Shown here: piece after piece, positions 608 to 19,471 of the stretch
Layout: each line of letters opens with the position of its first letter
Position numbering within the stretch: position 1 is the stretch's first letter
IMG/VR virus record: IMGVR_UViG_3300037493_000805
Span: 1 to 27,109 of that record
Direction: 5' to 3' (one strand)
Source of the DNA: a virus
Length of the DNA: 27,109 nucleotides
Program-made: the position numbers and the translations under genes
The notes under the pieces: model-generated
What the model was told of the DNA's origin: nothing
What the model saw: only the letters and a program-made list of their open reading frames with translations
The model's database searches: none

Positions 608-3376
608 TTATTTACATTGGTATTGAAAACAACACTCACAATCATCATAACTCTGCACTACACCAACTGTAGTAAATGGGCCCGGGCAGTTTGTTGTTTT
701 TAATACTGTCCAACATAGTCCTGGGTAATCATTTAGTTCTACAACCTTACCTGAGAATATACTTAGGTTTTGATTAGTCAATAAAGTAATATCTGTATTG
801 TTACAGTTTGTAAGTAAGTAGCAAGGAGGTACTGCAATATATTCTTTGCAATCTTCACATGTTTCAAATGCTTCTTCAACGGCATCAATACTAATTTCTG
901 TAGAGTTAGTGCAATCAAAAGTAAGACTTACATATAAGCATTCATCTAAACCAGTTATCTTAAGAATTTGACCTTGCAATGCATTTAAATAATCATTTGC
1001 TAAACCAAATGTATTAACTATATATTCTACTAAACCTGTATCACAATTAGTTAATGTATAACAGCATGGTACAAAAAGATCAGATGATATGCAATCACAC
1101 CGATCTGTTGTTGTATTAATTACACATGGTTCTGGACACTCCAACGGAGGCTCTGCTATTGTACATAACAAACTTGTTTTAATACCAGCTATAAGACTAG
1201 CTGTATACGCAAATTCAGTTTCAAAATAATCAGGAGTGCCTGCAACATTATTACTAGGAAATCTTAACCAGTCACCACTACCTGGAGGCGAGTCAATTTG
1301 ATAAGAAGAATTCCAATAAGGAAGAGCTGTTCCTGCAGCCGCACTAGGGAAAAAGAAATCATTTACATTGAATTGACAGTAATTACCTGGTCCTGACAAC
1401 GGAGGTCCTCCTGCTGTAGTTACAGGACCTATAAGAGCACTTCTTGTAAGAGCTCTCTCTTCTGCTGTCCCTACTATGATTGCTGTGATATCCGTAGCTA
1501 CTGTGGTATTACTACCTGTACCATTCTTGATAGCTTGAGCAAGATCCATTGCTTGAGTATGCATCAATCTTTTTGCAGCTATGTACGGACTCGTGTTAGG
1601 TTGCGTAGCTAGATTAGTAGGCATATGACAAACATTCACAGGAGCGCTTGATCCAGCAACACCAGGAACTCCGTTTGCCGCTACATAACCAGTTGCAGTA
1701 GGTGTACACCAAGCATCTTGAAAGTTTGTGGGTTGGGTAACAGTATTTATAGTAACTGGAGGATTTGATGTATTAGGCCATCCGTCTGTTATCCAAAGTA
1801 TTTTTTTCTTTGCTGCAGGTCTAGAGTTAGTACCAACAATAGTATTATAAGCAGCTCTTAAACCTGCAAAATAATTAGTACCTTGACCAGAATAAGATCC
1901 TACACCAAGAGGAACCATTGAGTCTACTTTAGCTTTAAGTGTTCCTACACCTACTCCAGCTCCCCATGCAGTAGTATTACCTACCTGTAAGGGTAAATTG
2001 ATATTAGAACCGGTTTCAGCACCAGAAAGAGGAGAGGTCTGTCCCCAATAAACAATGCCAACTCTTACTGTATCATCTGTAATTCTAGCATTTCCGCCAG
2101 TTGTATCTTGTACAGCATCAATAATATCTTGTATAAAAGTTCTATAGTCATCCATTTCAGTAGCACTGATAGAACTAGATCTGTCAATAGCAAATACTAA
2201 GTCTAATAAGCAAGGTGTTTCCGCACCTTCACAGTCTTGTGTTGTTGCATTATATGTAAACCCATCTGGACATAAATTATAACTTTGTCTACAGGTTTGT
2301 GATGCGGCATCTAAAATAAATCCTGGAGGACATCCGCAACCTGGTGTCACCTGCGTAGTCCATAAAGAAAACCCTGGACCATATGGTACATTGTAATAAT
2401 CAAGAGATGATGTATTTACTATTGTAGTAGCTGCATCTATAGCTTTATATACAAGGCCTATAGTGTCAATGGCAGAGTCATATGTAAAGAAACCTTCTGT
2501 TGCAGAATAGAAACTTGATCCTTGTATTCTTCTTTGATTAGATCCAAGAGGCAGTGCCGGAAATACTTCTGACCAGGTTACCCCCATATCAGTGCTATGT
2601 ATCATTGGACCGTTGCCTGCTGATACCCATAAACTTGAGGTACTGTCAAATAAATAGTTTGGATGATAACCAGATAAGATGGTAAACTTTTGAGTAACTC
2701 CGTAATATTCACTACTGCTCCAGGTATAAACAACTGAGAAGCTTGTTCCACCATCTGTACTTCTATAAACTTTTTCATTAGTTACAGCTACAATAATTTG
2801 ATCATCATCAGACATAATCAAACCCGATACAATTTCACCTACTGCAAGTTCAACACCTCCATTTAAATATGTCCAGTTATCTGCACCATCTATTGTTTTA
2901 GCAATTGCTCCACCATGTCCTAAAATACCAGTGCTAACATCTTTAAAGTATATACTTCTTGCTGTATTACCAAATGTTGAGTTAAGACCTGTTACTTCTA
3001 AAGTATAGGTAAGACCTGCATCAACAGATTTTATAACAGATGGAAAAGTGGCAACACCAGTACCTGCTATATAAATACCAGGGTTCTGCATAGCAACTGA
3101 CTCGGGTATAGATATCTGATAAGCGTTATCAATAATAGTACCTACAGGAGCAGTTACTGAATTAACAGTTTGTCCACCATTTGTGGTATATCCAATATAG
3201 CCATCTCCGCAAAGAATAGCATAGTCAGGAAAATTAGGTAACTGAGAAGTTTTAACATCAAATAGACCATTTCCTGTTCCTAAAATAGGACCCTGATCAG
3301 TCCACGTATTCGTGTTATGATCATATACCTGGAATAAATCTTTTCCCCCTACTAGATATGTTTTACCGAAAGCCAT
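608..3376 (-). CDS. Large adhesin-like protein: Asp-box propeller, Cys-rich linker, vWA domain, Cys repeats
   Basis: A 922-residue protein with four visible parts. Residues 1-345 hold five Asp-box-like (BNR) motifs, about 64-71, 117-124, 161-168, 206-213 (STDGGTSF) and 261-268 (STDMGVTW), which indicates a beta-propeller of the sialidase/sortilin type; no sialidase catalytic set is apparent. Residues 347-389 contain two tandem CPxGF-x8-C units. From residue 390 comes a von Willebrand A domain with a complete MIDAS signature: D398-x-S400-x-S402, T500 and D531 (ITDGW). From about 735 the tail is rich in CxxC and CC and has two copies of a module beginning 'YxLTNC'. Such domains bind glycans or proteins, so a receptor-binding or virion-surface role is the best guess. 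No signal peptide is visible. It starts 11 bp below a zinc-ribbon micro-gene; the ATG follows an A/C-rich leader. Confidence 0.88.
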   Translation of the reverse strand: MAFGKTYLVGGKDLFQVYDHNTNTWTDQGPILGTGNGLFDVKTSQLPNFPDYAILCGDGYIGYTTNGGQTVNSVTAPVGTIIDNAYQISIPESVAMQNPGIYIAGTGVATFPSVIKSVDAGLTYTLEVTGLNSTFGNTARSIYFKDVSTGILGHGGAIAKTIDGADNWTYLNGGVELAVGEIVSGLIMSDDDQIIVAVTNEKVYRSTDGGTSFSVVYTWSSSEYYGVTQKFTILSGYHPNYLFDSTSSLWVSAGNGPMIHSTDMGVTWSEVFPALPLGSNQRRIQGSSFYSATEGFFTYDSAIDTIGLVYKAIDAATTIVNTSSLDYYNVPYGPGFSLWTTQVTPGCGCPPGFILDAASQTCRQSYNLCPDGFTYNATTQDCEGAETPCLLDLVFAIDRSSSISATEMDDYRTFIQDIIDAVQDTTGGNARITDDTVRVGIVYWGQTSPLSGAETGSNINLPLQVGNTTAWGAGVGVGTLKAKVDSMVPLGVGSYSGQGTNYFAGLRAAYNTIVGTNSRPAAKKKILWITDGWPNTSNPPVTINTVTQPTNFQDAWCTPTATGYVAANGVPGVAGSSAPVNVCHMPTNLATQPNTSPYIAAKRLMHTQAMDLAQAIKNGTGSNTTVATDITAIIVGTAEERALTRSALIGPVTTAGGPPLSGPGNYCQFNVNDFFFPSAAAGTALPYWNSSYQIDSPPGSGDWLRFPSNNVAGTPDYFETEFAYTASLIAGIKTSLLCTIAEPPLECPEPCVINTTTDRCDCISSDLFVPCCYTLTNCDTGLVEYIVNTFGLANDYLNALQGQILKITGLDECLYVSLTFDCTNSTEISIDAVEEAFETCEDCKEYIAVPPCYLLTNCNNTDITLLTNQNLSIFSGKVVELNDYPGLCWTVLKTTNCPGPFTTVGVVQSYDDCECCFQYQCK

Positions 3377-4186: not shown

Positions 4187-5506
4187 TTATAGGTCTGCTA
4201 CAACTGGCTCAGTGTATATACAGATACTTGGACAAGCAAACACTTCAAGACCTGGGCAGTCATTGCAGTTTGTTAACCATCCTGGTACAAATACTGGCTC
4301 TGGTCCTGCAGGAGTATAACCAACCATGAAGTTTTCAAAGGCTGTGTCACGTCCGTCAACAACAATCTCTAACAAGTATTGATCATTATCAAATGTACCT
4401 GATGGGTTGTTATAACGTGGTACAGTATGCTGGATGTAGTAACGTCCGTAAGTAGCAGTTCTATCAATTGCATTATACACATCTGTACCGTTAGTGATCT
4501 CACGAATACGTAAGTCTTGTCCAGTATAGAAAGGTTGTTGCATGTATCCTTCAGTTAAGATAAGATCACGGATAACATTTTCTCCTGATCCTTTCAACTG
4601 ATAACCTGGGCAGCCTTGAGTTACACAGATACCGCTGAATGCACATGGATCACCATTAAGATCTACCTCAGAAGCATAAAGCTTAACTGGCTCTAAGAAA
4701 GCAATGATAGAATCATTAGGGTAGAAAGTACAGTCTTGGAAACGTGTGTCTACATAAGCTCCAGTGATAATCAAACCAGCTCCGTCAGTAACAGCAGCAG
4801 GATCAACAGTTGGTAAACCAGCAGGATCTTGAATTAATGATAACAATAAGTTCAAGTTAGCTTGTGAGCTAGTACCATCACCAACTTCAGACCATGTAGC
4901 ACCGCTGTCAGTAGTGTAAGTAACATTAACTTGGATAAACGGATTAATCAATGGAGAGTTCAACAATTGGTAAGCCCATTGTACGTATACAATCAAAGGA
5001 TTAACAGCTACTGGAGCAATTGCATCATCTGGACAACATCCAGTGTAACCAGCTGCAGTATAGTAAGTGTTACGAGTTAACGTACGCAATACTGGTGAAC
5101 CTTTGATATCAACACGTAAGTTGTAAGTTTCTCCACATAGGAAATCTTTTGTACAACCTGTGTCACCAAAGCTAGTATCAGTAGCACCAACTGTAAGTTG
5201 AGCTTGTTGAGAAGGACAATCAGCTACATAATAAAACTTATGTACATACTTAGGATTGATAGTCTTAGACTTTACAGTCTCAGCATATCCACCGTGGTAA
5301 GGTCCGATTTTGTCTTTTCCTTCGTGGATTGAACCAGCTACAAGTACTAAAGGACAACAAGTGCTTGGAACACCATCGGTTGCTATCCAAGTCTTAGGAT
5401 CATAGAATCCAAATTCACCGAGCTCTAATTGCTCGGTTCTAGTGTCTTCTGTAAAACCATTGTATCCTACAAAGGTTTTGTTAAAGGCATGATTAAAATA
5501 ACTCAT
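4187..5506 (-). CDS. Abundant-type virion structural protein (439 aa)
   Basis: A 439-residue protein beginning MSYFNHAFNKTFVGY. It is beta-rich, with many paired cysteines (CC near residues 50 and 157; 'NCNDCPG' near the end) and aromatic strands, and I recognise it as like structural proteins found in environmental Bacteroidota phages, without a firm name. Two features suggest high expression: a strong private terminator directly after the stop, and a leader almost the same as that of the major capsid gene (TAACCCTTAAA followed by A-rich sequence ending AAC-ATG). It could be the main tail tube, a major decoration protein or a second capsid-type protein. It follows ferritin by 67 bp. No enzyme motif is seen. 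Confidence 0.82.
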   Translation of the reverse strand: MSYFNHAFNKTFVGYNGFTEDTRTEQLELGEFGFYDPKTWIATDGVPSTCCPLVLVAGSIHEGKDKIGPYHGGYAETVKSKTINPKYVHKFYYVADCPSQQAQLTVGATDTSFGDTGCTKDFLCGETYNLRVDIKGSPVLRTLTRNTYYTAAGYTGCCPDDAIAPVAVNPLIVYVQWAYQLLNSPLINPFIQVNVTYTTDSGATWSEVGDGTSSQANLNLLLSLIQDPAGLPTVDPAAVTDGAGLIITGAYVDTRFQDCTFYPNDSIIAFLEPVKLYASEVDLNGDPCAFSGICVTQGCPGYQLKGSGENVIRDLILTEGYMQQPFYTGQDLRIREITNGTDVYNAIDRTATYGRYYIQHTVPRYNNPSGTFDNDQYLLEIVVDGRDTAFENFMVGYTPAGPEPVFVPGWLTNCNDCPGLEVFACPSICIYTEPVVADL

Positions 5507-5573: not shown

Positions 5574-6182
5574 TTACAAATAATCTTTCATCTCATGGTC
5601 AAGTAAACGCATAGCTACCTTATCAGTACCAAAGGCATTTAACTGGTCAACCCAGTTTTGCATCTTGTTATGCTCCTCAACCTGTTCTTTTAAATAAGCT
5701 AAAGCAAACTCATATAACATATGATCCATTTTCTTCATCGCATCATCAGCTAACTCTTTGATTTGCTGAGTAACAACAATCTCATGGTCATAAGACATCT
5801 CAATGATCTCAGGTAATCCTGTAAAGGTTTGCTCAGGTGATTCCAATACTGGAGTCTCTGGTTGAACACCCATAGATAATAAGTATGTACGTGCTAAATC
5901 AGAATGAGACATTTCCTCATTAGAGTATTTACGCCATAGTTTAGCAGCATTAACATAACCGTTGTTATCCAACCACATAGACATAGCCAAGTAGATTCTA
6001 CCTGAGTATTCTTCTTGTTGTACGCGGTAGTTTAAGTACTCAACACAATCATCAGATAAAAGAATATTCTTACCTTTAGTAGATGGTGCTTTAGTAGAAC
6101 TTACTGATGCTACTGCTGGTTTAGCAGCAGGTGCTACAGCAACTGTTCTTCTTAGTAAATTTCTTGACGGGGCTTCAGCCAT
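5574..6182 (-). CDS. Ferritin (FtnA-like) with basic N-terminal extension
   Basis: A 202-residue protein with a full ferritin four-helix domain from about residue 39 to the end. It aligns by eye with E. coli FtnA over the five helices with a constant offset of 40 and no gaps. The ferroxidase ligands are all present: E57, E90, H93, E134, Q167 and E170 (FtnA E17, E50, H53, E94, Q127, E130), as are the third-site residues E89, E166 and E169. It should oxidise Fe(II) and store Fe(III) as a 24-mer. Residues 1-38 are an added Ala/Pro/Ser/Thr-rich, basic segment without a clear signal peptide. It lies 11 bp after the connector-like gene and 67 bp before a major structural gene, so it is expressed with virion genes. 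Virion incorporation is inference. Confidence 0.95.
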   Translation of the reverse strand: MAEAPSRNLLRRTVAVAPAAKPAVASVSSTKAPSTKGKNILLSDDCVEYLNYRVQQEEYSGRIYLAMSMWLDNNGYVNAAKLWRKYSNEEMSHSDLARTYLLSMGVQPETPVLESPEQTFTGLPEIIEMSYDHEIVVTQQIKELADDAMKKMDHMLYEFALAYLKEQVEEHNKMQNWVDQLNAFGTDKVAMRLLDHEMKDYL

Positions 6183-6193
6183 GATATTTAATT

Positions 6194-6901
6194 TTATGTA
6201 TTAGTTTGCGATGTTGATTGAGCTATCTGATATTGAGTAATTGACTCTATATCTCCTGCAAGAATTTGTACCGCTTCATCAACTAGGATTTCAGCAATAT
6301 CATCTTTGAACTCGCATTCTACATCTACTGGAGATGCTTGTAATGTATAAGGATCTACGCATCCAGCAAACTGAACATTAACCGGAAATCTATAATACAT
6401 TAAGATAGCTGTTACTACATCAAAGTCATTACCTGTATAGACTCTTAAATGATTACCTACAAATGTACAGAAGGTTTCTCCCCACTCAAAGCTTGGTCTC
6501 TTAAGAGCATCGCTTAGTAATAGGGCTATATTCTCTTCTTCTGCTAAGTATGTAACCGTCATATCTCTTCTAGTCTCGCAACAACCTTTATGAGAATGGA
6601 TATTAACTTTCTTATAGTACATATAGTTAGAAGGTAATAGATTTGACTCAGAGAAAGTATCTCTAGTGGTCATGTCTAATTGTTCTTCTATAAGTAATCT
6701 TTGTAAGTCATCTACGCGCATAGTGCTTTGCTCATCACCAGTTTTAGTAATGTTCAAGCCTTGGATTTGACGTCTTACCCACTCAACCATACCCTTATTA
6801 AAAGCCTCAACCATTTGCCAACATTCAAAGTTGTCATAGTCTTGACTATCAAGCTTGTTAAGTCTCTGCTTAATTTTAAGCTGTAGGGTTGTGTTATTCA
6901 T
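6194..6901 (-). CDS. Probable head-tail connector / neck ring protein (235 aa)
   Basis: A 235-residue, mostly helical protein starting MNNTTLQLKIKQRLNKLDS and ending in a helix 'DDIAEILVDEAVQILAGD'. An N-terminal helix bundle, a beta middle and a C-terminal helix followed by a short tail are typical of head-completion or neck-ring proteins in tailed phages; the sequence style resembles ring proteins of crAss-like phages. It follows a GG-box protein through a TAATG stop/start overlap (translational coupling) and precedes ferritin. The connector assignment comes from recall of family style and position, not from a decisive motif. Confidence 0.7.
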   Translation of the reverse strand: MNNTTLQLKIKQRLNKLDSQDYDNFECWQMVEAFNKGMVEWVRRQIQGLNITKTGDEQSTMRVDDLQRLLIEEQLDMTTRDTFSESNLLPSNYMYYKKVNIHSHKGCCETRRDMTVTYLAEEENIALLLSDALKRPSFEWGETFCTFVGNHLRVYTGNDFDVVTAILMYYRFPVNVQFAGCVDPYTLQASPVDVECEFKDDIAEILVDEAVQILAGDIESITQYQIAQSTSQTNT

Positions 6902-7383
6902 TACTTTTTGCTTTTGCCTCTTTTAATGGCACCACCCATCTTAGATGATTTATTATAACTAACATCTACCTTTATAGGAATTTTTCTTTTCTTTCCAATA
7001 GTGCCATCATAACTTACACCGGCTGTACTTTTTTTATTAGCTGCATCATAACCAACGTTTGCACCAAAGCCAGACTTTGATTTATAGCCCGCTTTATAAG
7101 TAGCTGAGTCTAAAGGTTTGTTTGCACCTAAGTTAGTATTCATACCAGCACTGAATCCACCAACATTAGCACTAGCATTAAAAGGTTTATTAGCTGATGC
7201 TCCCATAGAGCCACTGTTACCACCAATAGTAGGAGGAGGTAACATACCATCAAATGACCCACCTGGTTGTTTTTTAGGTAAGGACTTTTTAAAAGCCATC
7301 ATTGAAGCGTTTGCCTTTTTTAAAGCTTCTACTTTACCTTTATTAAAGTATGAAAGCGGATTTGATGTTTTTGATGTTTTCAT
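6901..7383 (-). CDS. Basic Gly/Ser/Asn-rich GG-box protein (160 aa)
   Basis: A 160-residue low-complexity protein rich in Lys, Gly, Ser, Ala and Asn. GG boxes occur near residues 41 (KKQPGGSFDG) and about 151 (KMGGAIKRGKSKK). The middle (about 60-145) has repeated short strands with 'ASANKPF', 'NVGGFSAG' and 'NVGYDAANKK', suggesting a small beta-repeat. The C-terminus is strongly basic. One base separates it from the upstream 272-residue GG-box gene, and it overlaps the next gene by TAATG. Function unknown; a virion-internal, DNA-contacting role is possible given its charge. Confidence 0.78.
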   Translation of the reverse strand: MKTSKTSNPLSYFNKGKVEALKKANASMMAFKKSLPKKQPGGSFDGMLPPPTIGGNSGSMGASANKPFNASANVGGFSAGMNTNLGANKPLDSATYKAGYKSKSGFGANVGYDAANKKSTAGVSYDGTIGKKRKIPIKVDVSYNKSSKMGGAIKRGKSKK

Positions 7384-7384
7384 T

Positions 7385-8203
7385 TTATTTTACACGCTTT
7401 AGTCTTGGGTTAGCAGCCTTTGCTTTAGCAGAAGCCTTACGTGTGCTAGCAGCTAAGATAGCTCCAGCAGCAGCTTTAGATACACCTGACTTAGCAGCAA
7501 TCTTTGCTTGTACTGCTTTGAATCCAGGATGAGCTCCGCCTTTCTTTGCATAGCCCATCTTGTTTCTTACAGGTGCTGGGAGCTTAGCTAGACCAGGATT
7601 AGCACCAGGATTAACAGGCTTAAGTGAACCACCTTTAGCCATGTTGGAACCAGCAACCTTACGTCTTGGTCCATCAATAGGAGATGCTACAATAACACCA
7701 CCTTTTTGTTTAAATGAGTTACGTATATCTATCTTGTCCATTTTACTTGTAACTCTTCCTTTCGCATTGGCAGTACGCAAGAATTTTTTAGTCGCCTTAT
7801 TGTCCACTTTCTCAGCAGCGTCATAAGCCTTTACTTTAGCAGGATCATCAGAGGAGTAGTAGTCTTCACTCATAAGTATAGGATTAATTGGTCTATTTTT
7901 ATAAGGAATCAGTTTATCACTTAGCTTATTATACTTATTGGCAAGATGTTTTCTTCTCATTTGAGTAATCATACCACCTTTTTGTTTCTTAGAGTTTGTA
8001 AACTCTTCTATTTTTTTTATTTTTTGAGCCGGTGTCATTGGTTTAGTAGTACCTACTTGAATCTTAGCTGGATTCATTTTCATCTTAGGATTCTTGATAG
8101 CGCCTTTTTTAAAGGTATCAATAGTTTTAACAGGATCTAATTTAGATCCGCCAGCTTGGTATTTCTTCTTAATAGAACCCCCCATCTTAGTTGAATTTCT
8201 CAT
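7385..8203 (-). CDS. Very basic multi-GG-box phage protein (272 aa)
   Basis: A 272-residue, extremely Lys-rich protein. It opens with MRNSTKMGGSIKKKYQAGG and carries further boxes KKQKGGM (near 75), FKQKGGV (near 168), MAKGGS (near 190) and YAKKGGA (near 221). The C-terminal ~50 residues ('HPGFKAVQAKIAAKSGVSK' onward) form a conserved helical module I recognise from many phage genomes, function unknown. Boxes divide the chain into segments, so proteolytic processing at GG is one possibility. It lies 21 bp after the small basic gene at 8225. Its charge suggests nucleic-acid or capsid-interior contact; this is inference. Confidence 0.8.
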   Translation of the reverse strand: MRNSTKMGGSIKKKYQAGGSKLDPVKTIDTFKKGAIKNPKMKMNPAKIQVGTTKPMTPAQKIKKIEEFTNSKKQKGGMITQMRRKHLANKYNKLSDKLIPYKNRPINPILMSEDYYSSDDPAKVKAYDAAEKVDNKATKKFLRTANAKGRVTSKMDKIDIRNSFKQKGGVIVASPIDGPRRKVAGSNMAKGGSLKPVNPGANPGLAKLPAPVRNKMGYAKKGGAHPGFKAVQAKIAAKSGVSKAAAGAILAASTRKASAKAKAANPRLKRVK

Positions 8204-8224
8204 GATATATATAAGTTTTAATAT

Positions 8225-8503
8225 TTAGCAATTCCATTTTCTAAGTGATAAGGCTTTCCTTGTAGATTTACCTTTCTCATCTTTCATAGGTCCGGGCACA
8301 CCAGACATTCTAGCACAGAAGCTCTTTCTTCTTTTAGCAGGTTTGCTATCTGGATCTAGCTTAGATGGTTTTGTTGTTACAGCGGTCTGTAACTTGCTTC
8401 CCGGATTAGCAGCTCTATATGAAGCCACACCCTTAGCATTAAGACCTCCCTTAGGATCCTTACCTGCTTTTCTTTGCCAACTTGGGCTTTTATACTTTGC
8501 CAT
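8225..8503 (-). CDS. Small conserved phage protein, DUF6321-like (92 aa)
   Basis: A 92-residue basic protein with a pattern seen in many phages: KSPSWQRKAGKDPKGGLNAKG near the start, then 'YRAANPGSKL', 'KRRKSFCARMSGVPG' and a C-terminal 'LSLRKWNC'. I recall this arrangement as the DUF6321 family; that name should be checked. No biochemical role is known. It overlaps the end of the HNH-like gene by 14 bp, so translation is probably coupled. Like two neighbours, it ends in a C-terminal cysteine. Confidence 0.82.
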   Translation of the reverse strand: MAKYKSPSWQRKAGKDPKGGLNAKGVASYRAANPGSKLQTAVTTKPSKLDPDSKPAKRRKSFCARMSGVPGPMKDEKGKSTRKALSLRKWNC

Positions 8504-8966
8504 CTTCTTTTTCTTTTACAGCTTTGCAAAACTTAACTACATCTTCATGATTAAATTCTGATTTGCAAACATTGTACATATATACTACAACTTGGACATT
8601 TTCCTTTAAGTATGGCTTAGAACTATCTATTCTATCTATAGAGGGTACCCAAGGATTTTTTGTATGAGATGAGCTATTTAGAGCTGTCTCAAGATCAAAT
8701 TTAATACCTGTTACTTCACAATAACCATTTTTAATTTTATCATATATCCAATTTGTACCAAAATCTGGTTCAGGCCAACCCATGACCTTTGCTCTTTTGC
8801 CAGCATTACCTCTCAGTCTTTGAGCTCTTAACTTATCGGGATTATTCTTTTCCCATTCTATTTTACTACATCTATTACATCTACTATTACCACCTTTAGC
8901 AAATAAAAGTTTGTCACCTTCTCGGTTACAGTCTATGCATTTTTGTAAAGTTGGTGTCTTAGCCAT
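8490..8966 (-). CDS. HNH-like endonuclease with N-terminal zinc finger (158 aa)
   Basis: A 158-residue protein. C10, C13, C30 and C33 form a two-CxxC zinc finger. Further on come 'GYCEVTG' (81-87) and 'PSIDRIDSSKPYLKENVQ' (108-125), then 'YNVCKSEF', the pattern of free-standing HNH-type nucleases in phages, with conserved D111-R-I-D114, N123 and N132/K135. H101 is the nearest upstream histidine; whether it serves as the HNH first histidine is unclear. Such genes are often homing endonucleases inserted among structural genes. It begins at a TAATG overlap with the 52-residue gene and overlaps the next gene by 14 bp, so it is fully built into the operon, unlike a recent insertion. Confidence 0.8.
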   Translation of the reverse strand: MAKTPTLQKCIDCNREGDKLLFAKGGNSRCNRCSKIEWEKNNPDKLRAQRLRGNAGKRAKVMGWPEPDFGTNWIYDKIKNGYCEVTGIKFDLETALNSSSHTKNPWVPSIDRIDSSKPYLKENVQVVVYMYNVCKSEFNHEDVVKFCKAVKEKEDGKV

Positions 8967-9124
8967 TACTTCTTAGATTTAGCTTTAATCTTTTTCTCCT
9001 GCTTTAACATTTCAGCAGTAGGCTTTTTGCCTGAACCTTTATTAGCACGGACATTATCCCAAAGACCTCTTTGAGATGTACTACCATCCTTGCGCTTAAG
9101 CGTAGGTTTACTTTTTGCAGCCAC
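8966..9124 (-). CDS. 52-residue basic phage protein with GTG start
   Basis: No in-frame ATG exists upstream of the conserved part, so the start is taken as GTG at 9124-9122. The frame then runs AAKSKPTLKRKDGSTS, continues with 'RGLWDNVRANKGSGKKPT' and ends in a Lys-rich helix, closing with TAATG into the HNH-like gene. The 'LWDN(V/I)RANKGSGKKPT' pattern is one I recognise from small proteins near phage virion genes; function unknown. The 5' end overlaps the preceding micro-gene by 17 bp in another frame. An alternative is expression by frameshift from that gene; GTG initiation is simpler. Confidence 0.72.
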   Translation of the reverse strand: MAAKSKPTLKRKDGSTSQRGLWDNVRANKGSGKKPTAEMLKQEKKIKAKSKK

Positions 9125-9239
9125 AGCCTTGTTTCTTAGTAGGGTAACTAGATGTCAAAGCCCCGCCTTGTTTATAGGCAGGGGACTTTGAAGCACCAAT
9201 TAGTTTACTAGCTTCTTTTTTATCTAGTATGGTATTCAT
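9108..9239 (-). CDS. 43-residue GG-box micro-protein
   Basis: The ATG at 9239-9237 comes directly after the stop of the 64-residue gene (one-base gap). The protein begins MNTILDKKEASKLIGASKS, contains 'YKQGGALTSSY' and ends 'KKQGCGCKK'. The YKQGG box matches those in neighbouring basic proteins. A GC-rich hairpin (9158-9190) lies inside the coding sequence. Too short for a fold assignment; its packing between genes and shared box support that it is real. Confidence 0.68.
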   Translation of the reverse strand: MNTILDKKEASKLIGASKSPAYKQGGALTSSYPTKKQGCGCKK

Positions 9240-9240
9240 C

Positions 9241-9435
9241 TTAGCAATATTTTCTCTTAGGCATAGCCAATGGTTTGTTTACACCTCCAGAAGATTTACC
9301 GGCAGATACCTTAGTAGCTTTAAGTGGTGCGTTAACGTGACCTGATGATTTACCTAATGAAGTAGGAGTATAGTTAAATACTGACTTGCTATTTGGATTA
9401 GATTTTCCACCAATCCCTTTTCCTGAAGCTTTCAT
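9241..9435 (-). CDS. 64-residue Gly/Ser/Lys-rich small protein
   Basis: A low-complexity basic protein with two related halves: 'LGKSSGHVNAPLKATKVS' and 'AGKSSGGVNKPLAMPKRK' share GKSSG-x-VN-x-PL, an internal repeat about 20 residues apart. It ends KRKYC with a C-terminal cysteine. It is 19 bp after the 304-residue basic gene and one base before the next micro-gene. An A-rich leader precedes the ATG. Function unknown; it belongs by composition to the local basic-protein cluster. Confidence 0.72.
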   Translation of the reverse strand: MKASGKGIGGKSNPNSKSVFNYTPTSLGKSSGHVNAPLKATKVSAGKSSGGVNKPLAMPKRKYC

Positions 9436-9454
9436 AATATATTATTATTTACGT

Positions 9455-10369
9455 TTAACATTTTTTACCTTTCATTGAACCACCTTTTTTCATAGACTTC
9501 ATCATAGAAGCAGGAGTTGATGGTCCAGCTTTACGTACAGCTTTTGGAGGTCTAACAGTATTACCGGGACGAACTGCTGGTGTCATAGAAGGACCATACG
9601 GTTGTCTCATATCAGATGCACTTTGCTTTGGGCCTCTAATGCTACGTGGAGGCTTCATACCAGTAGTCATTCCACCAGCTTGATATTTCTTAACCGATCC
9701 ACCGTGTTTTTTAAATAAAAAGTTATAACCCGCATCAAAAGCATCACCAGCATAACCAGCTTTTCTTTTACCGGTCTTGTATGCTTCCTCAACTATAGCT
9801 TTTGCTTTGTTATAAGCCTCATCTTTAATTGCTTTACCGGTATTGTATGCACCTTCTACAATTTCACGTGCACTATAGTCAAGAGGATTTTTACTCATGC
9901 TTCCATCAGCAAGACCTTTTTTCTGTGCCGGAGCTGGTTTAGGAACTTCCTGAGCTGGTTTACCATTATCTTTAAATTTAACACCTGGCTTACCTGCTGA
10001 TACTTTTTTCTTAACAGGAGCTGATTTCTTCACTGGAGCTTTAGCTGGAGTTACTGAACGAGGAGGGCTTGACTTTGGAAAATTAACAGCTGGTGATTTA
10101 ATGATTGATTTTGTCTCTTCAGCTGTTTTGAACTTTGGTTCAATCTTAGTCATTCCCTTAGGTTCTAACTTTGTTGCAGGTTGCTTGTTAGCTCTTGTTG
10201 CAACTTTGTCGTTAATCTTGTTAACTTTGGTAGCTGTTCTAGCAGCTATTTTATCTACTTTAGCAGTAGTTTTTAAAGTACGGGCATCTTGGCGATTTGC
10301 AGTTCTTGCAGTGCGGATAACCTGTCTAGATGCTTGACGGGCCGCTCTTACTGGATTTTTTGGAGGCAT
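9455..10369 (-). CDS. Very basic low-complexity protein with GG boxes (304 aa)
   Basis: A 304-residue protein. Residues 1-75 are Arg/Ala/Thr/Lys-rich heptad-like repeats ('RQASRQVIRTARTANRQDA'), probably helical and DNA-binding by charge. Residues 80-150 are Pro/Lys/Ala-rich ('KAPVKKSAPVKKKVSAGK'), resembling histone-H1-like tails. A helical repeat follows at about 165-205 ('AYNTGKAIKDEAYNKAKAI'). Then come KKHGGSVKKYQAGG (near 220), a Pro/Arg-rich part and a C-terminal 'MKKGGSMKGKKC'. It lies 33 bp after the 337-residue gene. A nucleoid-like packaging or virion-internal protein is plausible, but no direct evidence exists. Confidence 0.78.
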   Translation of the reverse strand: MPPKNPVRAARQASRQVIRTARTANRQDARTLKTTAKVDKIAARTATKVNKINDKVATRANKQPATKLEPKGMTKIEPKFKTAEETKSIIKSPAVNFPKSSPPRSVTPAKAPVKKSAPVKKKVSAGKPGVKFKDNGKPAQEVPKPAPAQKKGLADGSMSKNPLDYSAREIVEGAYNTGKAIKDEAYNKAKAIVEEAYKTGKRKAGYAGDAFDAGYNFLFKKHGGSVKKYQAGGMTTGMKPPRSIRGPKQSASDMRQPYGPSMTPAVRPGNTVRPPKAVRKAGPSTPASMMKSMKKGGSMKGKKC

Positions 10370-11503: not shown

Positions 11504-13123
11504 TTAGAATGATCCACCAGTAACTGGGTTACGCATAACAATCTTCAATACTTTGGTCGGGTCTTTAACCCAGATCGCAGGCATGTTTTGTGTCATGTAT
11601 ACACGGTATCCATTGAATTGTCCAGAAGACGCAAAGCCTTGGCTACGTCCCATGTAATCCATAGTTCCGTTTTGGTACCACCATTTCAATTGATTATCCC
11701 AAGATAATTTCAACAAGAAGATGTTGTCATTAGTATTGTCTGTGATATCAAAGATAATGAATGAGTAAGAAGACAATGGGAAACCATCAATGATTGGGTT
11801 TTCAATGTCGTTAGTATGCAAGTTGTCAAACGCTGGATTCAACACAAACTTAACGTTAGCCAAGAATGGAATAACATAAGAAGTGTAAGCAAATCCAAAG
11901 TTCAAGTCCATACCTTTACCAGTGATTGCTCCGATGTCAGCAGCTTGGATCAACAATCCAGAAGCCATTGCTTCACGTGAGATCGCACTGTTAACCATAC
12001 GCATACCACCCATACCAGTTTGAACAACTAACTGACGCTTAGGATCTGGTCCTTGGAAGTCAACCTTACCAGCGTAGAAGTTATAAATCTCTGAACGGAA
12101 CAAATCCAAGTTAAAGTTAGCCTTGTTATAGATGCGCTTGAATGAGTTATCCAATTGCTTCCAAAGACCCACTGATAAACGGATGTCATCTGGACCGTCT
12201 TGACGTACACGTCCACCTTGTCCCCACATTAAGTAGGTCTCAATGTCAGTAGCTACTTTACTCAAGTGAGCTGCTTCCATTGCAGTTAAGAATGTACGAG
12301 ATAATGAACCATTGTCTACAGCACGCTTAACATAGTCCTTACCCATACGTGATACCATAGTCTCAAGACTAGATACAGATGGATCAGAATTTTTGTCAAA
12401 GTTACGCCAGATCTCTACTACAGGTACAGTACCATCTGCATTCATTCCACCTTTGATCATAAGATCAGCGCGAGAAGAAATAGAATAGTGTACGTGTGCT
12501 TCTGCTCCTCCTACGAAGTTGTAGAATTCACGGAAACCAGTAGCAGTTACAATGTCAGAGAAACGCTCTCCGTACTCTCCACGAGCAGAACCTTTACGGA
12601 AGATCTTAGTTCCAGGAGCTAAGATGCTTGTGTCAAGACCAAAAGTAGAGTCATTGTTTACCAATTGTACAGTGTACAAGAAACCATCTCCTAAAGGGAT
12701 AATGTCTTCAGTTGGTACAATGTACATCTCAGCACCGTTGTACTTGTCATAAGTGATAATGTCACCATGTCCAAATTCTCTACGAGACATTTTGATCTGG
12801 AATGTTTGACCATCCTTACCTAAAGTATCGTTATCTGTTAGGATGTCATCAACAATGTAAGGAAGATCCATTACAATTGGCGTTTGCCATTTGTACTCTC
12901 CGCGAGCATTGTCAACATTAATTACGTTCTTTCCACCAAAGCTAGACATTTGGTACAAAGGCATTTCTACCTTTTGCGCCATTGCCCAAAGATCCACTGG
13001 TCCTAAGTCCATAGGTTCAGAATTCTTGAGCATGTTAACCAAGTGGTAAGAATCTACGTGTGAACTAGCTGCGTAGTTGGTATCTCGTAGAAATATACCG
13101 TTGTTTAAAACTGGAGTTGCCAT
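11504..13123 (-). CDS. Major capsid protein, HK97-fold type
   Basis: A 539-residue protein starting MATPVLNNGIFLRDTNYAA. Typical capsid traits are an N-terminal arm, a long mixed alpha/beta core with 'KYNGAEMYIVPTED' and 'GDGFLYTVQLV', and a late region 'FGFAYTSYVIPFLANVKF' before a hydrophobic C-terminal domain. The resemblance is to large Bacteroidota-phage capsid proteins. Position supports it: portal, acidic scaffold, then this gene, with an A-rich leader (AAACAAAAAAAAAC before ATG) and a strong terminator after the stop. There is no protease domain, and no N-terminal delta-domain can be told by eye. It should form the icosahedral shell. Confidence 0.88.
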   Translation of the reverse strand: MATPVLNNGIFLRDTNYAASSHVDSYHLVNMLKNSEPMDLGPVDLWAMAQKVEMPLYQMSSFGGKNVINVDNARGEYKWQTPIVMDLPYIVDDILTDNDTLGKDGQTFQIKMSRREFGHGDIITYDKYNGAEMYIVPTEDIIPLGDGFLYTVQLVNNDSTFGLDTSILAPGTKIFRKGSARGEYGERFSDIVTATGFREFYNFVGGAEAHVHYSISSRADLMIKGGMNADGTVPVVEIWRNFDKNSDPSVSSLETMVSRMGKDYVKRAVDNGSLSRTFLTAMEAAHLSKVATDIETYLMWGQGGRVRQDGPDDIRLSVGLWKQLDNSFKRIYNKANFNLDLFRSEIYNFYAGKVDFQGPDPKRQLVVQTGMGGMRMVNSAISREAMASGLLIQAADIGAITGKGMDLNFGFAYTSYVIPFLANVKFVLNPAFDNLHTNDIENPIIDGFPLSSYSFIIFDITDNTNDNIFLLKLSWDNQLKWWYQNGTMDYMGRSQGFASSGQFNGYRVYMTQNMPAIWVKDPTKVLKIVMRNPVTGGSF

Positions 13124-14450: not shown

Positions 14451-14508
14451 TAAACTTTAGAAATTGATGCAATCTTTTTTTTAATCGCTATACTATAACT
14501 AAAGTTTA
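14451..14508. repeat. 10-bp inverted repeat at the portal/scaffold junction
   Basis: TAAACTTTAG (14451-14460) and CTAAAGTTTA (14499-14508) are perfect inverted copies 38 bp apart. The second overlaps the portal stop codon. The 108-bp gap has no good TAnnTTTG promoter; near matches such as TATTATTG are weak. The repeat could be a weak RNA stem or a regulator site. Confidence 0.55.
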
Positions 14509-17256
14509 CTTCTTCTTCTTCTTATCATCAGCTCCTTTGTCAAATTTGTTCTTGTTTTCACGAGCAATTTGAAGCTGAGTCTGTGCAATTTGTTGTTGAG
14601 CTTGTATCTTTTGTTGCTCAATACTCATCTTATCACGATGTTCCATTTGCTTTGTACTTTCTTTTTGACGATCAAAGTTCATGGTTTCTTGATATTGATC
14701 TGTTTTTTCTAGATTATTCATATAATCTACATAGTCACTCTCTTCATTCTTGTTAACATCTTGCATAGCTCCATAGCCTGCAGACTTAATTTGAGCTTGA
14801 AGAATATCAGCCTCACGGTCTTTAGCATTCTCTTCAGCTTCAAACTGCATCTTAAGCTTAGCTTCTTCAGCTTTAGCCTGAAGCATTTGATCTTGCATTT
14901 GTTGTTGAGATTGCATTTGCTGTTGTTTCTCAGCTTGTTGTTTCTTCTCAGATTCTTTAAGGATATGAGATACTTCAGCAATAGACTCAGACTTAAGAAC
15001 ATTACCAAGGTCATAGATACTAGCACCAGTTGTATTGTTCTGGATAGCCATTTGCTTAAGTTGCTCAAGCATAGCTCTATGATTAGCTTTAGTAGTACAG
15101 AATATATTAAGGTCTCTTAGTAGCAAATCGGTACCATTGATCTCAAAGTTCTTACGCTCATCCATAGAAGTGATGTACTGTAATCTTGCAGACGGTTTAG
15201 TAGACTGATAATGTTGGGCTAAGTCTGTACGCATCTGGTGCACGCGAGGCATCAAATAGTCACAGTGTTGTATAAAGTAAGTTTCTGTTTGAGCATAACT
15301 TGCATTAACTGATTGTTCAACTCCTGTAGCAGTCTGTTGTCCAATCTGTTGGCCTAAACGTTGTGGAGTAATACCAATGGTTTCAAATGCCTGTTGTTTA
15401 AAATACTGGGCTAACTGAATACGAGACATCAAACGGTTAGTTTGCTCAAGGTCAAGTTTCTGATAGTGCTGAAAAGCTAAGGCATTCTCTGTATTGGTAA
15501 TAGAAGTATCCAACGGTAACATCTGGAAGTTCTTCATTGCCACATAGGCCTTGGCCAAGTTGTTCTTTCCCCAGTCTTCTCCTAGTGAGTGTCTTGGTAA
15601 AGCGTTCTGGTCCAGTAAGATAACAGTTCCTAATTCATCCACAAGGATGTCAGCAATCTGATTATTTACAATATTATATCCAATCTGAAAAGGCTTCATT
15701 AAGTCAATCAATGAAGTAGATCTTGTATTACGGTCAGAGAATACAGAGCCTTCTACTGGTAACTTACATCCATAAAGAGAATCATCTCCTTTGAATTGAA
15801 ACTTAATAGGCTTAATGTTATTCTCATTAATACCAAGATAGATAGGGTTGATACCACCTGGGTTATTACTTCCCCAGAATGTAGGACGGTTAGGTCCAAT
15901 CTTAACACCACCCCACACCTCATTAATCCAGATCCAATCTATATGCTCACCAAATACTAAGTTATCTTTACTTTTATTCTTAATGATATTAGCATTATAT
16001 ACCGGCTTATCTGTAACCTTATATGTTTCATCAATAATATCCTGAGTAATATTTCCATTATCAGATATCTTAGTAAGATGACCAACTCTACGCTGTGACT
16101 TCCAATATACAGTGGTAACACGTAACATGTTACTCATACCCATATCTAAGTAGTCTTCATCGTTCATCATGATCCAGTTAACAATGTCTCCACCATAATG
16201 AGCATTATCCCACATGGATGTAAACTGACGGTAACCTAATGATGGCATCTTTGTATTCCAGTCATGAGACTTAGTAGCATCATAGTAAGATCCATCATTC
16301 TGATAACCTTGGATAGGATAACCAGCAGATCTTACAGGATAGATAAGCTCTAATGCTTTCATTTGATCTTCAGTCATGCACCAACCATAACGGTCAATTA
16401 CATCTGCTACAGTCATCATATCAAACTTACCAACCCATTGACCTTGAGATATATAACGTGATGCTGGTGACTTATGGTAAAATGTAAGAACCGGATTCCA
16501 TAGTTCAACATCATAATCATCTTCCAACATACGGAAGTGCCAGAACTCCCTATCTGTAATAAGCATATCACGGAAACCACGTTCCTCTAACTCATCCATT
16601 CTGAATCTTTCTACATCTACACGATGCTGATGCTCAGACCATTGCTCAACCATACTTCTATAGTCCTTGTTAAAGAACTCTTGTATTTCCGGTAATGACT
16701 TTAAGCTTTCTGGTTGCATAGCTTGCTGATACTCTTCAGATTCAGGATCTTGATCCATCTCTGCAAGTTTCATAGTCATCTTCTGCTGAGCCTCAAATAA
16801 AAGAACTTCTTCCACCTTAGAACGTTTCTGTTCAAGCATCTCATTGTATGAGTATTCATCAACAGCTGTATAAGTTACGCGAGTATTTCTTTTAGCAAAT
16901 TCTGATACTAATGTATTTACAACATTAGGTATAATAGGATAGAACTTAAGCTCTAGTGCAGAAGCATCTTCTTTTGTAAGAGTATCAATAAGATCAGCAT
17001 TTTCATTGTCTTCTTCTACAATGTAGTCAGTTCTATCAATGATACCTTTAGCTAGTTTATAGTTCTTCATGAACCTGCGGGCATTTCTGCGCACATGCTT
17101 CAGACCCTCCCACTCTAACCAGTCCATATTCCAAGCAGCCCATTCCTGGTCCTTCTTAGATTTTGGTAAAAATTGAACAGGCTGGTTGAGTGTACCCATA
17201 CGGTTGTACTCACCCTTAGCTCCATTCTTTAATTGCATTGCATTATATACCTGCAT
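14506..17256 (-). CDS. Portal protein (916 aa)
   Basis: A 916-residue protein between large terminase (one-base gap upstream) and scaffold. The early part has 'KGIIDRTDYIV', then 'FYPIIPNVVNTLVSEFAKR', the usual portal opening in Bacteroidota phages. The middle is mixed alpha/beta with many Trp/Tyr residues. A long helical stretch with 'QIAYFKQQAFETIGITPQR'-type content (read here as QLAQYFKQQAFETIGITPQR) corresponds to the stem/crown entrance. The last ~150 residues (about 765-905) are a Gln/Lys/Glu-rich coiled coil ending in poly-Lys. It would form the dodecameric ring at one vertex for DNA passage and terminase docking. Length is large for the class but typical of crAss-like portals. Confidence 0.88.
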   Translation of the reverse strand: MQVYNAMQLKNGAKGEYNRMGTLNQPVQFLPKSKKDQEWAAWNMDWLEWEGLKHVRRNARRFMKNYKLAKGIIDRTDYIVEEDNENADLIDTLTKEDASALELKFYPIIPNVVNTLVSEFAKRNTRVTYTAVDEYSYNEMLEQKRSKVEEVLLFEAQQKMTMKLAEMDQDPESEEYQQAMQPESLKSLPEIQEFFNKDYRSMVEQWSEHQHRVDVERFRMDELEERGFRDMLITDREFWHFRMLEDDYDVELWNPVLTFYHKSPASRYISQGQWVGKFDMMTVADVIDRYGWCMTEDQMKALELIYPVRSAGYPIQGYQNDGSYYDATKSHDWNTKMPSLGYRQFTSMWDNAHYGGDIVNWIMMNDEDYLDMGMSNMLRVTTVYWKSQRRVGHLTKISDNGNITQDIIDETYKVTDKPVYNANIIKNKSKDNLVFGEHIDWIWINEVWGGVKIGPNRPTFWGSNNPGGINPIYLGINENNIKPIKFQFKGDDSLYGCKLPVEGSVFSDRNTRSTSLIDLMKPFQIGYNIVNNQIADILVDELGTVILLDQNALPRHSLGEDWGKNNLAKAYVAMKNFQMLPLDTSITNTENALAFQHYQKLDLEQTNRLMSRIQLAQYFKQQAFETIGITPQRLGQQIGQQTATGVEQSVNASYAQTETYFIQHCDYLMPRVHQMRTDLAQHYQSTKPSARLQYITSMDERKNFEINGTDLLLRDLNIFCTTKANHRAMLEQLKQMAIQNNTTGASIYDLGNVLKSESIAEVSHILKESEKKQQAEKQQQMQSQQQMQDQMLQAKAEEAKLKMQFEAEENAKDREADILQAQIKSAGYGAMQDVNKNEESDYVDYMNNLEKTDQYQETMNFDRQKESTKQMEHRDKMSIEQQKIQAQQQIAQTQLQIARENKNKFDKGADDKKKKK

Positions 17257-17257
17257 A

Positions 17258-19471
17258 CTATCTTAAATTTTTAAATGCTGTACGTGGTATCTTCATACCG
17301 TCAAACTTATGTCCTCCTCCACCCATATGACGGAAAGGGCTCATATTCAATTTACTGAAATTCTTGCTGTTATCCAAGTTTTTTCCCGCTCCAGTTTCCT
17401 CATAACGCTTTTTATAACCTCTATTTGCCTGTTGAACTTTAGAAAAAGCAATTAATGCTGCAAATGCTACAAGTCTATCCACGTTGACGCCATCTCTATA
17501 TGCCATCATTTCTTTAAGCAACATTATGTCCGGAATACGTTCTATACCATATACTGTCTTAACTACTTTACCATCATCCGTTGTTTCCTGGTGTAACTCT
17601 TCTTTAAGAAAGTCAATAGCATAACTTACCATATGACTTTTAAATAAAGTACCTGTATTTCTCCAACCGTATTCTTGGAATACATTAGCATTAGCGCCAA
17701 GGTCTTTTAAGAATAGGATCTGAGATCTGGGTACAAGATACTTCTGTTTCTTTCTAAATATCATATAATTAATAAACTGACTAATATTATTCTCAACAAT
17801 AGTCCATGCATTATACCACTCTATGATAAGCTCTAGTCTCTCGTGTGTCTTGTTAATGTCATCAAAGCGTCCGCACCAAGCAGCTACAATTTTGTCATTC
17901 TCAATAAAGGTCTCAACCTTTTCTCCATCATTTCTAGTTACTTCTACAGGTGTTTTATATACATAGATAGAGCATAGAGATTCTGATGTAGTAGTCTTTC
18001 CTTCACCCACGGGGTCAATGCTTGCATAGTACATTCCAAACTCAGGATCTTTAACAGGACGCTCATACACTACAAGAGTACCTGTCTTATCCTCAGTATC
18101 TTTTGTTATTGGAAACTCTGATATAGGTAACTTATTAGTATCTCCTACAGCAGGTAGTCCATGATCATTTCTATAAATATCTAAGAACTCATAGGGATAC
18201 ATCTTATCTTCAATCCTACGGATCTGAGATGTAACCAAGTGAGCAGGGAATACTGATACTGTTCTGAAGTCAAATGCTTCTTTAATATTTCTAGGGTGCT
18301 GAGATATACGGAGTTGATATTCTTGTGGAGCAAGCTCTCTCTTCCACTCAGCAAATTGTTCATCTAATGCTAATAGAGCCTCAGCAACTTTAGAATTACC
18401 ATACTCATCAATAAATGGAGGCATGGACCATTGTTCAGGAATAAACAAACCTGTTCTACCTATAACACCAGTCTCATCTATAAGATTAGATTCTAAGCTA
18501 TAGATATCATTAGCATCAGGTCTAGTGATCATTTTCTTTAGTGGATCACACTGGGATAAGTCTCCTACAGATCCTGCAGCAATAAACATTCCGGTAGTCA
18601 TGAATCCTGATTTCATAGCAGGTCTGATGTACTCAAATGTTGTATCCATCTTAGGAGCAATACCTGCTTCCTCATGAAAGAAATATTTACATGGTCCCCC
18701 TACACCATTGGTTGGATCTTTCTCAAAGGACATACCTTGCATAACTCCTTTAAGGCCTATCTCAGATTTACGTTTTTGTGGACCTGATACAGTCTCAATC
18801 TTTTGTTGCCACATCATAACCTTGTTAGGGTTCATAGGGCGGTACCAGGCAGTGTGTTGATTTAAGAATGCCTCATATTCATTTAAGAACTTCCAAGTAC
18901 CCTTCTCATTAATATAGTCTTTAAGGCTAGCTCCGATCTTAAGAGTAACCCCTTCTTCAAACCATATTTGATTAATCAACTTACCAGCATGGTAATATGA
19001 AGATGCTATCTGACGTTTCTTAAGAATAGCCGCATGCTTATAGTTTAACTCTGCTAGGCATTCATATAAAGCTAAATGATACTGAGCATCTCTTACATCA
19101 GCAAAACCAAACTTTGCAATCTCCTTATTAAAGATAGGTAAGAAGTTTAGCCACATATAATAGTCACGTGGTATATACCAAGCATTACCATTACTTTTAT
19201 AGATAACTCCTGTTCTGCATTTATTCTTCTGATCATTCCAGAATACTACATAATCCTTAGTTCCTTGAGGAGCCTTACAGTAAAAGCTAAACTCATTAAA
19301 GTGTCTAGCTTGTTCATTAAACATTTTACTGGTCTCATCAAATTGATATAGACCAGGTTCTTTAAATATACTAAATACAAAGTCTTTGAAATCATCACGG
19401 GTATCAAAGGTGGTCACTGACCACTCTCCATTCTCCCATGTAGGAATTTCTATATCAGTTTGTTGTAGCAT
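17258..19471 (-). CDS. terL: Terminase large subunit
   Basis: A 737-residue packaging ATPase/nuclease. A Walker-A-like segment lies at about 150-160 (KKRQIASSYYHAGK), unusual in lacking the classic GKS/T. The Walker B with catalytic glutamate is at about 261-267 (YFFHEEAG). The RNase-H-like nuclease has 'YYASIDPVGEG' with its first Asp near 484, 'LFLKDLGANANVF' near 585 and 'NVDRLVAFAALIAF' with the late Asp near 664. These fit the two-domain TerL plan. It sits between a possible small subunit and the portal, one base from each. The stop is TAG, so TAG is not reassigned here. Confidence 0.92.
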   Translation of the reverse strand: MLQQTDIEIPTWENGEWSVTTFDTRDDFKDFVFSIFKEPGLYQFDETSKMFNEQARHFNEFSFYCKAPQGTKDYVVFWNDQKNKCRTGVIYKSNGNAWYIPRDYYMWLNFLPIFNKEIAKFGFADVRDAQYHLALYECLAELNYKHAAILKKRQIASSYYHAGKLINQIWFEEGVTLKIGASLKDYINEKGTWKFLNEYEAFLNQHTAWYRPMNPNKVMMWQQKIETVSGPQKRKSEIGLKGVMQGMSFEKDPTNGVGGPCKYFFHEEAGIAPKMDTTFEYIRPAMKSGFMTTGMFIAAGSVGDLSQCDPLKKMITRPDANDIYSLESNLIDETGVIGRTGLFIPEQWSMPPFIDEYGNSKVAEALLALDEQFAEWKRELAPQEYQLRISQHPRNIKEAFDFRTVSVFPAHLVTSQIRRIEDKMYPYEFLDIYRNDHGLPAVGDTNKLPISEFPITKDTEDKTGTLVVYERPVKDPEFGMYYASIDPVGEGKTTTSESLCSIYVYKTPVEVTRNDGEKVETFIENDKIVAAWCGRFDDINKTHERLELIIEWYNAWTIVENNISQFINYMIFRKKQKYLVPRSQILFLKDLGANANVFQEYGWRNTGTLFKSHMVSYAIDFLKEELHQETTDDGKVVKTVYGIERIPDIMLLKEMMAYRDGVNVDRLVAFAALIAFSKVQQANRGYKKRYEETGAGKNLDNSKNFSKLNMSPFRHMGGGGHKFDGMKIPRTAFKNLR

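Follow-up and report, generated by a model that had tools for sequence, protein, structure and literature searches.

A shared N-terminal tag precedes interchangeable ferritin and Dps-like payloads in a late-gene slot of crass-like phages

One slot in the late genes of a group of crass-like phages holds a modular gene, in which a short N-terminal tag is shared, the payload is swapped between a ferritin and a Dps-like protein just after the tag, and the metal ligands of both payloads are conserved. Based on the tag, the swaps, the ligands and the mass spectrometry of relatives, we consider that this gene is best explained as encoding a tagged, swappable ferroxidase cage that is loaded into the virion, a reading to which we assign a probability of about 0.58. 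Ferritins and Dps proteins of phages are commonly classed as auxiliary metabolic genes; the occurrence of two cages of unrelated sequence behind one tag in one slot of the virion block makes the selected activity (ferroxidation and iron sequestration) and the delivery system separable and testable.

The window, i.e., the whole stretch of DNA analysed, is a 27,109-base fragment of a virus record. Judged from its genes, the phage is a divergent, uncultured crass-like (Crassvirales-like) phage: its major capsid protein is of the crass type, and the ring proteins and the crass-like portal and terminase lie in order. The terminase is less than 60% identical to every one of the 133 named phage records that it matched, which include human-gut crAss-like, Flavobacterium and Cellulophaga phages. 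The tag-and-swap system is a stronger finding than the ferritin itself. The relevant features are the following:

4187..5506 (-): 439-aa protein g439 (MSYFNHAFNK...), downstream border of the slot; conserved, located after the slot in nearly all relatives
5574..6065 (-): FtnA-type ferritin domain, residues 40-202, with ferroxidase centre, third site and fifth helix (PF00210, nine invariant ligands, Foldseek match to 3qz3)
6066..6146 (-): Ala/Pro/Ser/Thr-rich linker, residues 13-39, variable in length and sequence among relatives (residues 1-29 disordered in the model)
6147..6182 (-): N-terminal tag of the ferritin gene, MAEAPSRNLLRR, residues 1-12 (36-nt identity with the relative L144, LKR enrichment)
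6194..6901 (-): ring (tail barrel) protein of the gp34/gp35 type, upstream border of the slot (profile match to phiCrAss001; phrog_29507, virion structural protein)
11504..13123 (-): major capsid protein, Crassvirus-type (PF23898 Crass_capsid, E 1.1e-30)
14506..17256 (-): portal protein (phrog_6547, E 4e-97)
17258..19471 (-): terminase large subunit (phrog_6681, E 3.4e-58)

The ORF at 5574..6182(-) encodes a complete protein of 202 aa that matches the Pfam Ferritin family (PF00210) with an E of 5.6e-21 and 75 bits, against a cut-off of 24.5. Its best solved relatives include the Vibrio ferritin 3qz3 and E. coli FtnA (1eum), and residues 42-198 align with residues 2-158 of the 1eum chain at a constant offset of 40. 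With this offset, the FtnA sites, which we take to be E17, E50, H53, E94, Q127 and E130 for the ferroxidase centre and E49, E126 and E129 for the third site, correspond to E57, E90, H93, E134, Q167 and E170 and to E89, E166 and E169 of the phage protein, respectively. All nine positions are invariant in an alignment of 45 ferritins. An initial reading of this DNA from its letters (hereafter, the sequence-only reading) had described a complete ferritin with all six ferroxidase ligands and the third-site acids at this offset, which is what we found, and had expected the protein to be active; with its ligands intact, it probably is. The single-chain AlphaFold2 model consists of a four-helix bundle and a fifth helix (residues 44-73, 77-103, 123-150, 154-184 and 188-201), with a pLDDT >90 for 160 residues and with residues 1-29 disordered. 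A Foldseek comparison of this model with 3qz3_A gave an rmsd of 1.3 A, and the matches listed were all ferritins. The phage protein shares with E. coli FtnA the fold, the domain length and all ferroxidase and third-site ligands, but it is only ~32% identical to it (structure alignment), adds an N-terminal tag and linker, and lies in a late-operon context. The search for ferritins in named phages returned only three weak metagenomic fragments.

The ferritin gene is located 11 bases after the ring gene and 67 bases before g439. In a profile search, the ring gene matched the phiCrAss001 ring proteins gp34 (E 2.8e-12) and gp35 (E 4.7e-10), and a previous 'R1/gp43' identity was dropped in favour of the gp34/gp35 type. 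No homologue of solved structure was detectable for g439, which is possibly a late virion protein. The ferritin had been placed between a neck-ring gene and a major structural gene; the profile bears out the ring protein, whereas the label 'major structural' derives from position. A profile scan of viral contigs detected a ferritin relative in 123 contigs, and most of the 80 contigs kept have the order capsid - g337 - small genes - ring - ferritin - g439 - g184 - g922. The ring - payload - g439 order is found in nearly all relatives, and near-identical synteny around the ferritin recurs in dozens of contigs, in line with the view that the gene sits stably inside a virion-gene block. The same late arm is present in a 119.6-kb relative (G002), where the ferritin lies beside further ring-like, muzzle-sized, cargo-like and very large proteins, with functions assigned by analogy with phiCrAss001 (PMC10172136). 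Other crass-like genomes encode ferritins outside the slot, right after the portal gene (L081), between the portal and capsid genes (L024) or upstream of the terminase gene (L031, L068 and L070). At L024:7543-8934, a Dps-like gene, a ferritin gene and a GroES-type co-chaperonin look-alike, recognised by eye only, stand in a row between the portal and the scaffold/capsid genes.

Close relatives without a ferritin were retrieved by searching with the capsid gene, and the same gap mostly held another gene. Among 40 relatives near the window's capsid gene, the slot contains a ferritin in 3, a Dps-like gene in 34 and nothing in the remaining 3. The slot product of these sister phages starts with the residues that also open the ferritins and continues with a different domain, DUF5856 (phrog_858); in L160, the tag and linker alone match the ferritin queries, and the payload itself is Dps-like. 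Based on a profile match to H. pylori NAP (HP-NAP, 1ji4; E 6.7e-6) and on the predicted structure, this payload is assigned to the Dps fold. Its leading Foldseek matches are overwhelmingly Dps proteins with a probability of ~1.0, but with E values of 0.01-0.05 and TM scores of 0.4-0.6. Residues H68, H80, D95 and E99 are invariant and have the spacing of Dps H51, H63, D78 and E82, while the equivalent of Dps D67 is not conserved; four of the five E. coli Dps ligand positions are thus matched by spacing.

Across 287 loci with both borders, the slot contains a Dps-like gene in 143, a ferritin gene in 84, both in 4, no gene in 43, and another or no recognised gene in 13, counts that come from partly redundant contigs found with queries from this lineage and are not population frequencies. 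They comprise 101 distinct Dps-like and 45 distinct ferritin payload proteins, plus 3 with both. The sequence-only reading had regarded relatives lacking ferritin at this position as evidence against its proposal; many do lack it, but most of those carry a tagged Dps-like cage in its place. The payload is dispensable, since many genomes carry none anywhere: in 16 empty- or other-slot records, neither family was found relocated by Pfam above the cut-off. Conversely, ferritin and Dps-like genes stand in tandem in L048:7998-9054, L050:7917-8971 and L057:7977-9034. Both payloads of the L048 tandem bear the same tag type, MQKIVRPTVFNTK and MQKIPRPSVLSAK, and the Dps-like copies of L050 and L057 have no tag. 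In L263, L264, L267, L282 and L289, the slot is occupied by unrelated small basic proteins, some with KTGG stretches, and no iron cage.

A natural exchange of payloads is seen between L340 (Dps-like) and L341 (ferritin), which are 98-100% identical along most of their 8-kb flanks. Their DNA identity runs through ATGGCCGAACAACCAAGAAATTTACTAAAGAGAGA, the tag, and then stops, with the break at codon 12; one further variable patch lies in the upstream small-gene region. The window and L144 (Dps-like) share this junction, with 94% DNA identity over the 36-nt tag, no meaningful similarity in the payload, and 76% identity downstream. The ferritin domain of the window is closest to the L002/L003 group (91% to L003 over the tree columns); nevertheless, the tag DNA is only 69% identical between the window and L003, though the L003 ferritin is 85% alike. 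On a tree of the capsid protein, the payload changes 13 times, and at least 8 of these changes are forced by well-supported branches.

The 38-residue 'basic extension' noted by the sequence-only reading is a short tag followed by a disordered linker. That cellular ferritins such as FtnA lack the extension was correct, but its basic charge is not conserved: the net charge of the N-terminal region ranges from -1 to +5 among the 45 ferritins (median +2), which rules out a basic DNA-binding tail as the conserved trait. The conserved part comprises the first 8-14 residues, most commonly in the form ...R-[ML]-L-K-R, and the identical 11-mers MAEQPRNLLKR and MEAKPRMLKRP are found on both payload types. 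The LKR motif occurs within the first 16 aa of 68/104 Dps-like proteins and 27/45 ferritins, against 8/1771 other ORFs and shuffled means of 0.4 (Dps-like) and 0.3 (ferritin). It is written in 16 different codings, indicating that the amino acids, not merely the DNA, are kept; the distance from the start codon to the motif varies among relatives, and the motif itself is retained. Approximately one third of the tags are degenerate (KRPLK, RPTIFS and RQLK types), and such variants are also common to both payloads: KRPLK on the L012 ferritin and the L300 Dps-like protein, RP[ST][VI]F on the L037 ferritin and the L378 Dps-like protein, and MAEF[IV]KRP on the L399 ferritin and the L402 Dps-like protein. 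Across payload classes, tag similarity tracks ring-protein similarity (rho 0.45 vs a permuted maximum of 0.26), but because the tag and the ring gene adjoin each other in the DNA, linkage contributes to this lineage signal. Linker similarity does not track the phage lineage as given by the ring protein (rho 0.03). The five ferritins outside the slot mentioned above have no LKR tag. A scan of viral contigs for the tag pattern (DNA of MExPRMLKR) recovered slot genes and otherwise short or unrelated frames that matched by chance, with no convincing protein outside the slot, and a search for [LIVM]KR in the first 14 residues of proteins outside the slot returned three ORFs in G002, none convincing, and none in G012.

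FtnA and Dps are both closed cages that oxidise Fe(II) and retain the mineral inside, with their N-termini on or close to the exterior. We propose that the late-gene slot after the ring protein supplies a protein composed of a tag, a disordered linker and either of two iron-oxidising cages. The tag would dock the cage to a virion component, likely a head component, in the course of head assembly, as the T4 capsid targeting sequence (CTS) does for internal proteins; borne on a flexible linker and present in many copies per cage, it would be suited to docking. The late virion block and the crassvirus habit of carrying protein cargo (PMC10172136) point to a head component during assembly as the likely dock. 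The cage would then be located in the head interior or, less likely, on the outer surface. There, it would oxidise and lock away Fe(II) and consume peroxide or O2, and the phage would benefit in that its DNA and proteins are spared Fenton damage, either within the particle or while it is being assembled. Since cages that differ in size and are unrelated in sequence replace each other, selection appears to act on ferroxidation and iron storage and not on a particular surface; ferroxidation with iron sequestration is the only activity that both payloads are expected to share, and is thus most likely what selection keeps. More tentatively, at slightly short of even odds, we suggest that a peptide-tag system loads whole iron-mineralising nanocages (ferritin or Dps-like) into the virion as a cage-in-capsid antioxidant cargo, which recombines at the tag-linker joint and is distinct from ejected cargo.

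The virion- or assembly-linked role put forward by the sequence-only reading is likely the best reading, given the tag common to the Dps-like payload in the same slot and the mass spectrometry of relatives. Mass spectrometry of the Salmonella phage Sajous1 detected its gp217 protein (retrieval count of 10), and the authors themselves raised the possibility of contamination (PMC10892097); we confirmed that gp217 belongs to DUF5856 (E 1.3e-28). In the CsCl-purified Klebsiella phages VMC03/04, a protein that corresponds by its annotated family name was detected with 26/27 spectra (PMC13119998). These reports suggest that DUF5856 is a Dps-like family that is sometimes virion-associated. Because Dps is abundant and binds DNA, its detection in phage preparations may reflect carry-over, a caveat that applies to both preparations. 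Moreover, the known DUF5856 members Sajous1 gp217 and Vi01_092c are 117 aa long and encoded outside the structural block, unlike the slot payload.

The closest working analogue is the T4 CTS with its variable internal proteins, a likeness from which we claim no membership. In both systems, a short conserved N-terminal tag is followed by highly diverse or exchangeable payloads. In T4, the CTS sends proteins to the head core and can also be used to load foreign ones (PMC3012670). The tag sequence and the phage order are different, however, and the T4 payloads are small anti-restriction proteins, whereas those described here are multi-subunit iron cages; for the crassvirus tag, virion loading is a proposal. 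Family 1 encapsulins are similar in that an HK97-fold shell takes up iron-oxidising four-helix-bundle cargo through a short terminal peptide, and a cage within the shell has been proposed for their Bfr cargo (PMC8346489). The ferritin-like cargo of encapsulins bears its peptide at the C-terminus, and encapsulins package no genome, whereas the tag of the slot gene is N-terminal and the shell would be a phage capsid. An encapsulin cargo proper was ruled out, as there is no adjacent encapsulin shell gene and the capsid gene encodes a crassvirus major capsid protein accompanied by portal and terminase. A further comparison is with the cargo of phiCrAss001 (gp45, gp46 and RNA polymerase subunits), which shows that crassviruses carry large protein cargo in head and tail (PMC10172136). 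Those cargo proteins are believed to be ejected in unfolded form, a route that would be difficult for an assembled ferritin. In phiCrAss001, the lumen of the tail measures 8.15e5 cubic angstroms (PMC10172136) and a 12-nm sphere ~9e5 cubic angstroms; a 24-mer of ~12 nm exceeds this lumen and should not fit the tail. The phiCrAss001 paper mentions no ferritin or iron (PMC10172136), and we found no description of a tagged ferritin / Dps exchange in crass-like phages in the open literature (subscription papers and preprints lay outside the search). Should the tag load cages into heads, it would account for the way in which some phages shield their packaged DNA from iron-driven damage, extend the T4-style internal-protein logic to Crassvirales, and offer a ready-made peptide with which foreign cages could be packed into phage capsids.

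The most serious alternative, which we nonetheless regard as unlikely at roughly one chance in four, is that nothing is packaged and that the cage acts only in the infected cell, as the product of an accessory metabolic gene that buffers the iron and peroxide arising from host takeover; the tag would then bind an intracellular phage partner (DNA, polymerase or membrane) or aid translation of the late transcript. The dispensability of the payload is consistent with this role, as are the Dps-like genes that other phages carry outside structural blocks, e.g., near the primase gene in Vi01, and the Dps and manganese catalase of Gratiaviridae, which have been read as oxidative-stress genes (PMC8008677). 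Nevertheless, a soluble enzyme needs no protein tag that is conserved across swaps with many synonymous codings, the ferritins outside the slot manage without one, and relatives of the payload are present in phage preparations.

That the 'tag' is only an upstream homology arm, with recombination proceeding through the conserved ring gene and the first codons of the payload gene, is improbable. Such a passive arm would account for break points just after the tag and for tags that follow the ring lineage, but not for an LKR motif whose frequency far exceeds that in shuffles or other ORFs and which is encoded in 16 ways, nor for its persistence at varying distances from the start. Additionally, the second of the two tandem genes in L048 is tagged in its own right even though it does not adjoin the ring gene. 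We consider it very unlikely that the four-helix bundle has been co-opted as a scaffold or decoration to which iron chemistry is irrelevant. Its position among virion genes would agree with this use; the nine ferritin ligands invariant in 45 sequences, the Dps-type ligands invariant across the Dps-like set, the mutual replacement of 24-subunit and presumably 12-subunit cages, and the existence of empty-slot genomes all argue against it. The least probable alternative is the 'Ferrojan horse', entertained by the sequence-only reading and put forward for Vi01-like phages, whose proteome includes a Dps-like protein, in which particle-borne iron aids siderophore-receptor binding, but the iron core of these cages is enclosed, a Dps-like cage serves equally well in the slot, the gene lies outside the tail-fibre / muzzle block, and Vi01-like phages infected TonB- and FeoB-deficient Salmonella about as well as the wild type (PMC10892097).

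Regarding the origin of the ferritin, the phage sequences fall together on one side of a single branch when 93 ferritins are placed on a tree (support of 87/93; a single group in 94% of the bootstrap trees). The nearest cellular group is a Flavobacteriaceae chromosomal ferritin of 43-47% identity without an N-terminal extension, and ordinary Bacteroidota ferritins are far more distant (~30% identity). The single phage clade and its distance to this extension-free gene rule out a recent, isolated acquisition from a host, an origin that the sequence-only reading had named as contrary to its proposal. The Flavobacteriaceae sister group (L087-L096) has a conserved chromosomal neighbourhood. A phage-type ferritin was also found at L086:1090-1689, on a 5.5-kb contig of a Tissierellales MAG, which is probably a misbinned phage contig.

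Elsewhere in the window, the 922-aa protein encoded at 608-3376(-) matches the von Willebrand A domain (PF00092, E 3e-8) and, weakly, BNR/YCF48-like repeats, and homologues of varying length are encoded downstream of the slot in many relatives. The small proteins clustered in the capsid-to-ring interval at 6901-10369(-) are Lys/Gly-rich and repeatedly contain K-x-Q-x-G-G or KKGG stretches; comparable stretches are present in other late proteins of relatives and are possibly a shared assembly or cleavage signal. Within this interval, at 8225-8503(-), a 92-aa DUF6321 protein (PF19846, E 2.4e-23) is encoded by a gene that overlaps the end of the HNH-like gene at 8490-8966.
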